Below are positions 1 through 21,999 of a DNA stretch of 64,000 bases, in pieces (position 1 is the stretch's first letter; every line of letters begins with the position of its first letter). Source of the DNA: an uncultured Granulosicoccaceae bacterium (GTDB lineage Bacteria > Pseudomonadota > Gammaproteobacteria > Granulosicoccales > Granulosicoccaceae); assembly GCA_937922675.1 (NCBI GenBank), contig CALAJN010000014.1:62001-126000 (forward strand). The letters are read 5' to 3'. The position numbers and the translations under genes were made by a program. Under the pieces are notes generated by a model. The model did not search any database. It was not told the origin of the DNA and was given only the letters and a program-made list of their open reading frames with translations.

Positions 1-1443
1 GATGCCGCGCTCAGGCACGAGATACGGGTTCCACGGCCGAGTAACATCCATCTGCAGGGGCGATGCATCGGCGACGGATACAGCGGCTCCAGTAACCAGC
101 CTCTGACCGTCCAGACCTGAAGTGGCGTCAGCGGCTGACGATTCGCCGCTGCTATTGATGGCCGTTGCAGGAGCTACAGCAGGCGCTGCAACAGCACCTG
201 TCGCGCCGTTTGAGACAACACCGAGGCCGGCTACGCGATCAATGTCGCCCTCTTGAAGCGCAGCAGGATCAGCCTCGACTGACCCATCCAACGGAGCCTC
301 AGCCGCGCCCAATGAGAGGCTCGGATGAACCCCATCTACAGGCTTTGTGCGCGCACTGGACGCGGGGGTTACATCAGAGGTTACTTGCCCGGCAACAGCC
401 ATCGCAGCGGCGGCTGCTATCGGTGCTGAAGATGCGCGAGATGGACTTGGATCAATACCAGCGCCAGAAACACCACTATCGCTTGTGCCCATCGTCGACA
501 CGCTGACGGACTCTGTTGGGCCCAGGCTACGCAAACGGTCATTGCGTGATGGCACGGGAGACTCGCCAGTATTTTGAGCATTCGATGCCGGCAGGCCAGT
601 AGCGTCTTCTCTCGCGTAGGCACTCGCACCCGGCCGCTCTGCTCCTCTGGTCACAGACTCGCCGGCGACAAGGTCTGCGCCTGGGTTCTCGCCTGGGTTC
701 TCGCCTGGATTCTCGCCTGAGTTCTCACCTGGGTTCTCGCTTCGGTTCTCGCCTGCGTTCAAGCCTGGGCCTGAAGTAGAGCTAGCGTTGGTCGCTGCGG
801 CGGCATTCGACGGATCACGCGAGAATCTTGCGGCACTATCGTGTCCGAACCTGTCATCGCTCGTCTCGGTATCTGACTGCACAACAGCGCGGCCCAGTTG
901 TTCATGGGTCTCACTCCCGGCCCCCACGGATTCGCCACTCACAGCTTGCGTGCCCGGCAGGAGCTCGCCTGGCTCAGCCTTTGATGACTCAGCTGCCGCA
1001 GGGTTGCTTTCGTTTTCGTCTGGCAGCAGTGGATCGGGTGTCTCGCGAGTCATTTCATCGTGATCGCTTGCACCCTGAAGCGCCTGTTCGGATAGCACGT
1101 CCTCCGCTGTGTCTGCGGATCCCTGCAGCCTCAGCTCATCGCCCCTTGTCGCCTCAACAAGATTTGAGCTCCGATCGGCAGCTGTAACAGCGGCTTCTCG
1201 AGCGGCCTGTTCGGCGGACGTGTCTGCTTCTGAGCCCGTGTTTTGTTTGCGCGCCTGCTCTAGTTGAACTTCAAAGCTTGCACCCGCCACAGACGAATCT
1301 GCCGCTACCAACCCGTCGTCAAGCGCTGTGCTTCCAGCCGCCGTGGTTGACCCCGTGGCGGGTCCCGCAGCCGACACACTGACTGACGCGTTGGCGTTGA
1401 GCAGACTGACTACCGACGCTTGCTGTTGAGAGACTGCAACCAT
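1..1443 (-). CDS. fliK: Flagellar hook-length control protein FliK, N-terminal part (partial)
   Basis: The minus strand is open from the ATG at 1443 to the left window edge (481 codons, no stop). The start overlaps the fliJ stop in a TAATG arrangement, so the two are translationally coupled. The visible part is low-complexity, rich in Ala, Ser, Glu, Gly and Thr, starting MVAVSQQQASVVSL, with a run of PGEN-like tetrapeptides near residues 228-255. FliK N-termini are long, disordered and poorly conserved; the diagnostic C-terminal switch domain would lie outside the window. The call therefore rests on position directly after fliJ and on composition. FliK is secreted during hook assembly and switches export from hook to filament substrates. 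Confidence 0.7.
   Translation of the reverse strand, partial: MVAVSQQQASVVSLLNANASVSVSAAGPATGSTTAAGSTALDDGLVAADSSVAGASFEVQLEQARKQNTGSEADTSAEQAAREAAVTAADRSSNLVEATRGDELRLQGSADTAEDVLSEQALQGASDHDEMTRETPDPLLPDENESNPAAAESSKAEPGELLPGTQAVSGESVGAGSETHEQLGRAVVQSDTETSDDRFGHDSAARFSRDPSNAAAATNASSTSGPGLNAGENRSENPGENSGENPGENPGENPGADLVAGESVTRGAERPGASAYAREDATGLPASNAQNTGESPVPSRNDRLRSLGPTESVSVSTMGTSDSGVSGAGIDPSPSRASSAPIAAAAAMAVAGQVTSDVTPASSARTKPVDGVHPSLSLGAAEAPLDGSVEADPAALQEGDIDRVAGLGVVSNGATGAVAAPAVAPATAINSSGESSAADATSGLDGQRLVTGAAVSVADASPLQMDVTRPWNPYLVPERGI
679..762 (-). repeat. 12-bp tandem repeat inside fliK
   Basis: Seven head-to-tail copies of a 12-bp unit (GCCTGGGTTCTC on the plus strand, with one to three changes in the outer copies) lie in frame within fliK. 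They encode a PGEN-type tetrapeptide ladder in the minus-strand product. The unit length keeps the frame, so copy-number changes would lengthen or shorten the protein without breaking it. Confidence 0.85.
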
Positions 1444-18472: not shown

Positions 18473-19279
18473 ATGCCAAACAACACTGCTTTGAGCGACG
18501 ACGCTGTTCTTGTTGAAGCTACTCGCATCGTACGCGCTGCAGGCGATGTCGCCGCAGAGCGTTTTCGTGATGATACAGCGCTGCGCATCGAGCGCAAGGG
18601 TGCCCAGGACTGGGTATCCGAGGTCGATCGCGACATCGAAACGATGATCCGCAAGGCGCTCGCTGACACCTTCCCCGACGACGGTATCGTCGGTGAAGAG
18701 CACGCTCCTGTTGAGGGGAGTAGTGGCCGTATTTGGGTGATTGATCCGATCGATGGCACTTCCTTGTACGTCAATCGCAGCCCTGGCTGGTGTGTCAATG
18801 TGGCAGCGATTGTCGAGGAGAATGTTGTGCAGGCGATAACCTATGATCCGTTGCTCGATGAATGCTTTACGGCTCGTCGCTGTGGCGGAGCTCAACTCAA
18901 TGGTCGATCGATTCGAGTGCAGGATGCACAGTCACTGAAAGATTGCATTCTGTTTGTGGGGCATTCAGGTCGTGTACCACCCAACAAGGTACTTGCAACG
19001 CTTGATCAGGTGCTCAATGCCGGCGCCATGTATCGTCAAACAGGCTCTGGTGCCATGGGACTTGCCAGCGTCGCTGCAGGGCGAGTTGCGGGTTATATAG
19101 AGTCGCAAATGTTTGCCTGGGATTGTCTTGCCGGCTTGTTGCTCATTGAAGAGGCAGGCGGTCAAGCCATGAGCTTCGACATGCACCACATGCTGACCCA
19201 GGGTGGACCTGTCATCGCAGCCTGCAAGGGTATTCACGACACCTTGATAGACATCGCAGACAACTGCTTTGCTGATTGA
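18473..19279 (+). CDS. Inositol monophosphatase family protein
   Basis: A 268-residue Mg2+-dependent phosphatase of the IMPase/CysQ/HisN superfamily. It carries the metal-binding Glu in VGEEHAP, the core motif WVIDPIDGTSLYV and the C-terminal AWDCLAG. Family members dephosphorylate inositol phosphates, PAP, histidinol phosphate or similar. The residues after DPIDGT (SLYVNRSPGW rather than NF) differ from SuhB, so the substrate is open; a HisN or IMPase-like role is plausible. Its stop overlaps the next gene's TTG start. Confidence 0.9.
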   Translation: MPNNTALSDDAVLVEATRIVRAAGDVAAERFRDDTALRIERKGAQDWVSEVDRDIETMIRKALADTFPDDGIVGEEHAPVEGSSGRIWVIDPIDGTSLYVNRSPGWCVNVAAIVEENVVQAITYDPLLDECFTARRCGGAQLNGRSIRVQDAQSLKDCILFVGHSGRVPPNKVLATLDQVLNAGAMYRQTGSGAMGLASVAAGRVAGYIESQMFAWDCLAGLLLIEEAGGQAMSFDMHHMLTQGGPVIAACKGIHDTLIDIADNCFAD

Positions 19280-20241
19280 CCAGACCATTGAATACCAGGG
19301 GCGCTATCGCCGTTGCTGCAGGCGCTGCTGTCTGGGGACTGTTCTGGATACCCTTGCGATGGATCGATGACTCGGGGCTTGATGGATTGATCGTCGTTGC
19401 CATCGCCAATGGCGCAGCAGCACTTGTACTGACCGGCTATCTCGGCGCTACGGGGCGTCGGAGCCTACTCAAGAGCTTGCAAAGCTCGCAGGCACGACTG
19501 GTAGGCGCCACTCTTGGTGCCTCTAGCGTCCTGTACATGCTGGCCCTGATATACACCGACGTGATCAGAGCGGTCTTTCTGTTCTATCTGCTCCCGATCT
19601 GGGCAGCACTAGCCGCACGCTGGTTGACTGCCGAGCCAATAAGCCTGCGACAGCTATCCGCTATAGCCCTCACTATCGCAGGGGTCTGGTTGTTGCTCGG
19701 TGGCAGTGCGGAGCAGCTGCAAGCAAGACCCGGTTTTGGTGATTCTCTGGCCATCGCCGCAGGCATGACCTGGGGTCTTGGTCTTGCCTTGCTTGGCGGG
19801 CACAAGCGATTGGCTACCTCAACAAGTTGTCTGGCTACCTTTGCAGGTGCTACCGCATTTGCATTATTGGCCTTTGGGTCGGTTCAACTGTTACCCGAAT
19901 CCTGGACGAACAGCATCCGGATCTCGACTCACACAACAGGATCAGTAACGCATTCCGAAGCACCTGAAAACCTCAAGCCAGCGATACTGTCAACAATCCT
20001 GTTTGGGCTGTTCTTGCTACTGCCATCAGTGACCAGCCAGGTCTGGGGGGCCGAGCGCTTACCGGCATCAACCGCCGCGATGTTGACCACCACCGAGATT
20101 GTGGTGGCAACCATATCCTCGGTCTGGCTGATTGGTACCTCAGTGGACGCAAGCGGTGCGCTGGGTGCCGGCTTGATTACCCTCGCTATTTTACAGACGC
20201 TACGACCAGGCAATAACAAGGATTCTGCAAGAGGGAATTAG
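19276..20241 (+). CDS. EamA/DMT-family transporter
   Basis: A 321-residue protein with about ten hydrophobic helices arranged as two EamA repeats (first about 8-140, second about 155-310), the signature of drug/metabolite exporters. The frame begins with TTG overlapping the IMPase stop (19276-19279); another TTG lies at 19288. There is no clear ribosome-binding site, so re-initiation after the upstream gene is likely. The substrate is unknown. It ends one base from the stop of the convergent GH16 gene. Confidence 0.85.
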   Translation: MTRPLNTRGAIAVAAGAAVWGLFWIPLRWIDDSGLDGLIVVAIANGAAALVLTGYLGATGRRSLLKSLQSSQARLVGATLGASSVLYMLALIYTDVIRAVFLFYLLPIWAALAARWLTAEPISLRQLSAIALTIAGVWLLLGGSAEQLQARPGFGDSLAIAAGMTWGLGLALLGGHKRLATSTSCLATFAGATAFALLAFGSVQLLPESWTNSIRISTHTTGSVTHSEAPENLKPAILSTILFGLFLLLPSVTSQVWGAERLPASTAAMLTTTEIVVATISSVWLIGTSVDASGALGAGLITLAILQTLRPGNNKDSARGN

Positions 20242-20242
20242 C

Positions 20243-21919
20243 TCAGCGCTGATAGACACGTATCCAGTCCAGCTCATAGCGTGACGGAAATGGCGTGCTT
20301 TCATCGGCAGGACCCGGGAAGGTGCCACCGATGGCAAGATTGGCAATCAGGTACATCTGCTCATCGGACACTTGCTCTCCTTCGACTCTGTGCGTCTCTA
20401 TGCCATCTACTGTCCAGACAATACGCCCGGGCTCCCAGATGACGCCATAGACATGGAAGTCGGACGAAAAGTCATCGATCGTTGCACGCCCTTCCGATGA
20501 CACGAGGTCGGTGTGGAAGCCATCACCGTCCAGATCACTGAAATAGTGGTAGGCATGATTAGCCACTGTCGGGCGATCACCCAGAGCCTCGATGATGTCG
20601 ATCTCGGGGTCTTCGGGTTGATCCTGGTTGTAGTAAGCATTGAGAAGCCAGAAGGCGCTCCAGAATCCTTGTCCAGCAGGCATCCGCGCACGCGCTTCAA
20701 TACGGCCGTAGCGAAAGCGAAAGCTGTTGTAACTTGTGATGATACCGGACAGAAAAGGTTGCCGATTCAAAGCAAAGCTGTTGTCTGCGGTGTTGACCGT
20801 ACGTGTAGTGGCATCGATCTGCCGCCCATCAGCGTCATAGGCAATAACCCGAAAGCGTCGATCTTCGCCGGGTACAAGGTCATCGATGAACAGCGAACGC
20901 GCATCGCTATCAAGCACCTGAGAACCGTTGTCGGTCACTGTATATCGGCGCGCCCCAAGTACAGCTCCCCACGCAATCTCCGCCGAGGTGTCACTGAAGC
21001 TGGTCAGACGAACGATGAGACGCTCAACGGTACGTGGCCCGGTAGAGCCTGCGTTGGCATCGAGTTTTACCTCCTCGGCAATGATCAAGTCGTCGCAGCT
21101 GTCATAGGCCGCTACGCGGTACTGATACATTTCACCAGCTTGCAGGCCTGCCTCAAAAAGACTCGTGAAGTTTGCACCGTTCAACTCCCGGTACAGGCGC
21201 CCATCGCGATAAACCTCAAAGCGTGTCGCTCTATTGGGTGCATCCCAGATAATCTCACCACTGGTCGCCGAGTAGACGTTGGCACGCAGCCCCAATGAGA
21301 ACGCTTGCGGCGGAACCGACACGACACGCTCATCAGTATTGATGGTGATATCCGCTGTCAATATCTCACTGCCACTGGCATCAAGTGCCGTTACCGCATA
21401 CGCATACTCGATCCCCTCGCGAAGCCCGCTATCAAGAAAGGAGCCTCCGGTTGCCGAGCCCAACTGCACGCCATCCCGGTAGACCTGATAACTGACCGCA
21501 CCGTCTGGCACACGCCAGAGGAGTTCAATGGTGGATGGCCCGTAGATGGATCGAGTGAGATACAACTGATCACGTGCAAAGGGCGTCTTGATAGCAGTGA
21601 TAGCGAGCGTCCCATCCTGAACGCTGAACGGATCAAAGCCGAACTGAGCATTATTGACGTAGTACTGCTGCTCGTCATTGATGACAACACCGGGCCCCCA
21701 CAAAAACTCTGTCTCCCACTTGTTACGATCCAGAGTATTGCCGTTGAACTCATCGGCAAAGACCAGTCTCCATTCAGCATCACTGTCGGGGATATCGCAA
21801 GTGTCCGCTGCGACCACACCACTGGCAAGTGACCCGAGCAGTATAAGCCCGGCGCCACTGAGCCCACGAACACCGCGGGACTCAGCCAGCCAACGAAATA
21901 ACCGGTGTTGTCTTGTCAT
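20243..21919 (-). CDS. GH16 family glucanase split by three Fn3-like domains
   Basis: A 558-residue secreted protein from the ATG at 21919, with a signal peptide of about 38 residues ending VVAADT. Residues 49-115 begin a GH16 fold (EWRLVFADEFNG, NDEQQYYVNN, DGTLAITA). Three beta-sandwich repeats resembling fibronectin type III then intervene (about 116-197, 205-290 and 298-376, each with an E-I/L-x-W-x-x-P/A pattern and VYRDG turns). GH16 resumes at about 385 and holds the catalytic motif EIDIIEALG (Glu439 nucleophile, Glu444 acid/base). Such enzymes are laminarinases or related endo-glucanases. The discontinuous layout is unusual. Confidence 0.9.
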   Translation of the reverse strand: MTRQHRLFRWLAESRGVRGLSGAGLILLGSLASGVVAADTCDIPDSDAEWRLVFADEFNGNTLDRNKWETEFLWGPGVVINDEQQYYVNNAQFGFDPFSVQDGTLAITAIKTPFARDQLYLTRSIYGPSTIELLWRVPDGAVSYQVYRDGVQLGSATGGSFLDSGLREGIEYAYAVTALDASGSEILTADITINTDERVVSVPPQAFSLGLRANVYSATSGEIIWDAPNRATRFEVYRDGRLYRELNGANFTSLFEAGLQAGEMYQYRVAAYDSCDDLIIAEEVKLDANAGSTGPRTVERLIVRLTSFSDTSAEIAWGAVLGARRYTVTDNGSQVLDSDARSLFIDDLVPGEDRRFRVIAYDADGRQIDATTRTVNTADNSFALNRQPFLSGIITSYNSFRFRYGRIEARARMPAGQGFWSAFWLLNAYYNQDQPEDPEIDIIEALGDRPTVANHAYHYFSDLDGDGFHTDLVSSEGRATIDDFSSDFHVYGVIWEPGRIVWTVDGIETHRVEGEQVSDEQMYLIANLAIGGTFPGPADESTPFPSRYELDWIRVYQR

Positions 21920-21999
21920 GACCAGAGTGTAGATATCGGCTTCTTGTGTGAGCGCTCTTGTCGCCATTCCCTTTGGCGGCGTCTTGTAGCAGGGGCAGC

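Follow-up and report, generated by a model that had tools for sequence, protein, structure and literature searches.

The window, the whole stretch of 64,000 nucleotides that was analysed, belongs to the marine bacterium Granulosicoccus and carries on its minus strand a gene for a GH16 enzyme with a predicted signal peptide, and the features assigned to the gene were as follows.

20243..21919, minus strand: complete gene of a secreted GH16 enzyme (558 aa) that has Fn3 modules inside the chain
21806..21919, minus strand: signal peptide, residues 1-38, assigned by inspection, with cleavage before D39-T40-C41
21797..21799, minus strand: Cys41, one of two cysteines in the mature protein
21569..21775, minus strand: N-terminal part of GH16, residues 49-117, strands as far as beta4
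21329..21568, minus strand: Fn3-like module 1, residues 118-197, seven model strands and repeat model
21056..21304, minus strand: Fn3-like module 2, residues 206-288, Pfam, model strands and repeat model
21095..21097, minus strand: Cys275 in module 2, predicted partner of Cys41
20786..21028, minus strand: Fn3-like module 3, residues 298-378, model strands and repeat model
20756..20785, minus strand: return junction, residues 379-388, from conservation
20246..20767, minus strand: C-terminal part of GH16, residues 385-558, from beta5 through the final strand
20588..20605, minus strand: catalytic motif EIDIIE, residues 439-444 (Glu439, Asp441, Glu444), conserved in orthologues

The boundaries were refined to 49-117 for the GH16 N part, approximately 118-385 (about 268 residues) for the insert and 385-558 for the GH16 C part. 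An alternative ATG at 21967 in the same reading frame on the minus strand would give a protein of 574 aa instead of 558. The putative signal peptide contained a helix at residues 24-33, at low confidence, in the AlphaFold2 model, and A38-D-T-C41 was unchanged in all 15 aligned orthologues. No lipobox was seen by eye in the signal region, and ADTC does not match the lipobox rule. An EamA-like gene, named by eye (19276-20241, plus strand), and the GH16 gene are convergent, with a single base separating them; this pair was kept at locus L021 and also, with wider spacing, at L022. The neighbours, named by inspection as EamA-like, thiol-isomerase-like, MFS and GlmS, were partly kept at L021, L022 and L024 and were not found at L023.

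Pfam GH16 matched residues 371-553 with 81.5 bits, above the cut-off of 22, while residues 49-117 alone matched no Pfam family at E up to 1. The ExDxxE motif of the family was present as EIDIIE, with E, D and E invariant in 15 of 15 orthologues. Pfam fn3 reached 28.8 bits when summed over the whole protein against a cut-off of 25, and the modules taken singly scored 12.6, 14.6 and 14.9 bits, all below that cut-off. Each of the three inserted modules had seven strands in the AlphaFold2 model, and Foldseek matched Fn3 arrays such as 6tpw and 6q9m with low TM-scores (0.13 by query). The modules are called Fn3-like because of the summed Pfam score, the seven strands in each and the Foldseek matches. 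The preliminary description had placed three similar Fn3-like modules between the GH16 N part and the catalytic part. The separation was borne out, with the same split in 16 of 16 orthologues examined; the similarity held for modules 1 and 2 (29% over 78 residues by BLASTP) and for modules 2 and 3 (36% over 66) but not for modules 1 and 3, for which BLASTP gave no match.

The subfamily was less clear-cut. The motifs WPA ... WXX ... WPX are 'largely conserved' in GH16_3, the laminarinase subfamily, according to a section of PMC6827312; here W420-S-A and F534-P-G stood instead of WPA and WPX, so the enzyme was not filed as GH16_3. The GH16_3 histidine was present as His458 in 15 of 15 orthologues, which counts to His137 of ULam111, and GH16_3 is the subfamily that the enzyme appears to resemble most. 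The nearest NCBIfam model was EglC (NF052454), with 132.7 bits and an expected value of 1.7e-38, below its cut-off of 700.

The structural model was produced with AlphaFold2 from an alignment of 16 sequences, namely the window protein, four orthologues and eleven GH16 domains from viral contigs, and had a mean pLDDT of 76.4 and a pTM of 0.59; a single-sequence run gave a pLDDT of 34.9 and an unusable model. Five strands were modelled in residues 49-117 and 12 in residues 385-558. The predicted jelly roll superposed on known GH16 structures, with the best results in VIA-align 2 for 2vy0_A (Z 29.2, 2.2 Å, 227 of 264 residues aligned) and 6jh5 (Z 28.9, 1.9 Å, 222 of 232), over model ranges 46..558 and 48..558, followed by lichenases at about Z 25, porphyranase B (24.5), AgaC (23.6) and kappa-carrageenase (23.2). 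Since residues 385-558 number only 174, at least 48 of the aligned residues come from upstream of residue 385. In two paralogues of the same genome, matched with a query of residues 49-379, a homologue of the GH16 N part adjoins the catalytic part at a distance of 3 bases (contig C1) and 18 bases (contig C11). The model is not independent of the homology argument because its GH16 rows are gapped at the insert. Overall, the results support residues 49-117 and 385-558 together forming one predicted GH16 jelly roll, in agreement with the earlier proposal that the modules lie inside the catalytic fold; a model with residues 49-115 as an independent domain and 385-558 alone as the complete fold was not obtained.

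The position of the insert was read against ULam111, in which beta4 spans residues 55-63, beta5 spans 66-73 and the turn between them consists of residues 64-65 and is placed opposite the cleft in this one laminarinase (PMC5595797). ULam111 residue 67 aligned with residue 389 of the window protein, and Arg71, which lies on beta5 and contacts sugar (PMC5595797), corresponds to residue 393 by count. Model strands 104-111 and 392-395 flank the insert, which together with this alignment indicates that the insert replaces the beta4-beta5 turn. The permuted GH16 chains 1mve, 1cpn and 1cpm had their N-termini at approximately residues 385-391 of the window protein when counted back from the aligned stretches; the turn thus tolerates being broken, and the cleft need not be affected by an insertion at this site. 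The position opposite the cleft argues against direct shaping of substrate binding, which the preliminary description had suggested and which found no support here; it appears less likely than the side-arm reading. Binding could still be affected, as beta5 also holds the counterpart of Arg71. The model does not fix the direction of the arm because pLDDT was below 50 at junction residues 377-385 and in linker 199-207.

The distribution of the split was surveyed with separate profiles for the N and C parts, which gave 94 rows among the matches listed, at most 30 for each search and with some repeats. The gap between the two parts was 275-278 residues in 16 distinct orthologue rows, the window gene included, and 11-42 residues in 50 other GH16 rows, in which one double-GH16 protein is counted in two overlapping loci. 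Among the remaining rows, 23 of the 94 had no N-part match, one had a gap of 83 (27 with a broader model) and four were the second pieces of C-part matches that had been split (gaps 144, 187, 199 and 270). A further set, of 61 ORFs that came largely from searches of the class and the phylum and were again taken from the matches listed with some repeats, had both parts in 61 of 61, with gaps of 4-41 residues in 60 and 272 for the window's own. In a midpoint-rooted tree of 61 GH16 rows, from which rows without an N part, with a C part below 80 bits or with gaps of 61-269 had been dropped together with L149 and L152, the 16 rows with the insert formed one side of a branch with support of 100/100 that was present in 100% of 200 bootstrap trees. 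This clade fell in a poorly resolved group of Granulosicoccus GH16s.

At the level of genomes, a full-length match to the insert (residues 118-385) without internal stops was found in 16 of 27 genomes of the genus. For genomes with a completeness of 90% or more and a contamination of 5% or less, the insert was present in 11 of 16 and no full-length match was found in the other five. In the class (369 genomes, best 5 candidates per genome) a match to all or all but one of residues 49-379 occurred in three genomes, all of this genus, and in the phylum (398 genomes, best 3 per genome) a full match to these residues occurred only in the genome of the window. A plasmid collection gave 282 matching records, none covering 80% of the protein. 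Four contigs matched in a species collection by a method that finds close relatives only; all were Granulosicoccus or Granulosicoccaceae, and three of them carried proteins identical to those from the genus genomes. The arrangement was thereby confirmed as real and inherited, and within the genomes searched the split architecture was seen only in Granulosicoccaceae. The simplest reading would be one insertion event within the GH16 expansion of the genus.

One Granulosicoccus genome (G000) had 8 GH16 matches and another (G023) had 15; according to a motif scan, 21 of the 23 loci carried an ExDxxE-like motif. A study of kelp-associated genomes, in the portion consulted of PMC9238374, reports laminarinase genes as surprisingly absent at a KEGG cut-off of 1e-20; the 8 and 15 GH16 matches are at odds with that absence, with laminarin activity putative. 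One paralogue clade (L029 at G000:C1:213397-213909, L040, L154 and L155) had degenerate motifs, ELFIME or ELYVME and, in L029, RVFIAE; its members are probably not catalytic because ExDxxE has been lost. L029 lies approximately 3 kb from the intact GH16 gene L026 on the opposite strand, and similar close opposite-strand pairs occurred in other genomes. In addition, one ORF of 818 aa in G023 (L037:652-3105) had two tandem GH16 modules.

Proteins of the genus other than this enzyme also had units related to the insert. A VYS-x-TAAELFW-like signature marks an Fn3 subtype that recurred, mostly in twos or threes (L098-L101, L114-L131), and the hosts of related units included CotH proteins, an alginate lyase with a carbohydrate-binding domain, GH115_C-matching proteins, a YHYH protein, a SASA esterase and others, which fits a pool of modules common to many proteins of the genus. 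With the repeat model of the insert, 63 units of other proteins scored above 35 bits and the Fn3 units of the GH16 paralogues tested scored 12.7-30.8 bits, which weakens a derivation of the trio from the paralogue units; the comparison is biased because the other proteins (22 stretches, four of six from one set and 18 from another) were picked for matching the insert. Acquisition of the trio as a ready-made block was unsupported, as most outside units were nearest to module 1 and their order was not 1-2-3. Nor were outside units always at chain ends: many were N- or C-terminal, but those of L127 (residues 131-307 of 722) and L130 (200-364 of 686) lay mid-chain.

All 16 orthologues have exactly two cysteines, Cys41 and Cys275, in the chain that begins with the ADTC motif, a conservation pattern that is new here. 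Counted from the cleavage site placed by eye, Cys41 is the third residue, and all 63 related Fn3 units that scored above 35 bits in other genus proteins lacked cysteine. Two conserved cysteines and no others in an exported protein suggest an intramolecular Cys41-Cys275 disulfide, which would link the start of the catalytic domain to the middle Fn3 module and pin the arm. A disulfide-linked dimer is conceivable as an alternative.

The split, its conservation and the single clade of its carriers were shown by computation, as was that a single GH16 fold accommodates both parts. The gene is best explained, with good though not full confidence, as encoding a two-part GH16 endo-beta-glucanase of the laminarinase type with a putatively disulfide-pinned Fn3 side arm, probably away from the cleft. 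In the exported enzyme the catalytic jelly roll would be built from two separated parts of the chain, and the three Fn3-like modules would loop out at the beta4-beta5 turn, on the side facing away from the cleft. By tying the middle module to where the catalytic domain begins, the putative disulfide would keep the arm held rather than floppy. Both ends of the cleft would be left open, and the arm may serve as a spacer or as a docking surface for the cell surface, the matrix or a partner protein. The likely substrate is a beta-1,3-glucan such as laminarin, which ULam111 prefers (PMC5595797). The laminarinase type was assigned because the best sequence matches and the top structure rows were endo-1,3-beta-glucanases, Glu439, Asp441, Glu444 and His458 are invariant, and Phe534, which is Phe in 14 of 15 orthologues, counts to Phe212 of ULam111.

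The least likely reading treats residues 49-117 as a domain of their own, or the arrangement as an artefact of assembly or fusion. It would be consistent with the confinement of the Pfam GH16 match to 371-553, but it is highly improbable given the adjoining N part in the paralogues, the joint superposition, and the recovery of the uninterrupted insert from the genus genomes and the four contigs. It is somewhat less improbable, though still unlikely, that the insert shapes substrate binding, with the modules covering or extending the cleft or serving, within the enzyme, as a carbohydrate-binding arm by which glucan is fed to the cleft. Stretch 376-388 had a mean identity of 89%, the highest of the seven stretches measured, and this return junction leads into beta5 with the Arg71 counterpart; furthermore, inserted CBMs in SusG and Pm25 appear to aid action on insoluble substrates in the excerpts used of PMC7848910. 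The position of the turn in the ULam111 description speaks against such a role, as does the insert itself, in which no carbohydrate-binding Pfam family reached its cut-off.

The substrate was a separate question. The same architecture could act on the cell's own exopolysaccharide, with the arm retaining the enzyme in the biofilm matrix, which is compatible with the preferred explanation and carries perhaps one chance in a handful or slightly better. Rhizobial EglC and ExoK act on the exopolysaccharide of the cell itself. EglC was the best NCBIfam name, far under its cut-off, and as the nearest model it does not point to laminarin; no other gene for polysaccharide degradation was seen beside the gene by inspection, and related Fn3 units occur on CotH and on other proteins that have no obvious role in feeding. 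However, the closest structures were laminarinases, related units also occur on the alginate lyase and the SASA esterase, and a Sinorhizobium GH16 (L192, without annotation) had no insertion, its gap being 27. L192 was accordingly discarded as a precedent for the insertion.

For the side arm of the preferred explanation, a tentative and rather doubtful extension is that the three Fn3 modules form a closed triangle whose middle is clamped to the catalytic domain by Cys41-Cys275. Because the chain exits the fold into the insert and returns to it at a single turn, three rods could close in this way. If true, the triangle would be a rigid docking ring on the back of a glycoside hydrolase and a new way to mount modules, and it would explain the invariant module number and the two cysteines in the 16 orthologues. 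More generally, the protein shows that the GH16 fold accommodates a large inherited insertion at the type of turn that evolution and protein engineering have used for chain termini, and it may offer a natural scaffold for placing modules at a distance from the active site.

Compared with the GH16 laminarinases 2vy0 (P. furiosus), 3azx (T. maritima), 6jh5, 4crq (ZgLamC) and 5wut (ULam111), the window protein shares the jelly roll and ExDxxE, and its invariant Gly103 and Asp551 count to the calcium-site residues Gly54 and Asp229 of ULam111; those enzymes, however, have no Fn3 in the beta4-beta5 turn, and the matched chains were mostly of 230-280 residues. In the permuted Fibrobacter glucanase 1mve and the engineered 1cpm, 1cpn and 1axk (GluXyn-1), the chain is broken near the same turn, by counting. 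Tsai et al. in 2003 are said to have described a natural circular permutant, and GluXyn-1 holds an inserted xylanase. The permutants and GluXyn-1 have termini or an engineered foreign domain at the turn, whereas the window protein has an inherited Fn3 trio. Two GH16 paralogues of the same genome (L026 and L027) also have Fn3-like units, but placed before the catalytic domain. The GH16 protein L149 from another genus of the class (L149:526-2877, G226:C5; 784 aa) is likewise interrupted, but in a different loop and by CBM96 (104.1 bits, best stretch 147-285), which lies inside the catalytic domain before ExDxxE.

No Fn3 insertion in GH16 was found by titles and abstract openings in a literature collection made up mostly of non-subscription papers, and the words 'insertion', 'inserted', 'circular' and 'fibronectin' were absent from the portion covered of the main text of the GH16 subfamily paper (PMC6827312). 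In other folds, CBM58 is inserted in the GH13 enzyme SusG and CBM4 in the GH10 enzyme Xyn10C/Pm25, according to parts of PMC7848910; these enzymes also have accessory modules inside the catalytic domain, but their inserts are carbohydrate-binding modules. Domain insertion in glycoside hydrolases is thus already known, and Fn3 within GH16 is a further variant of that theme.
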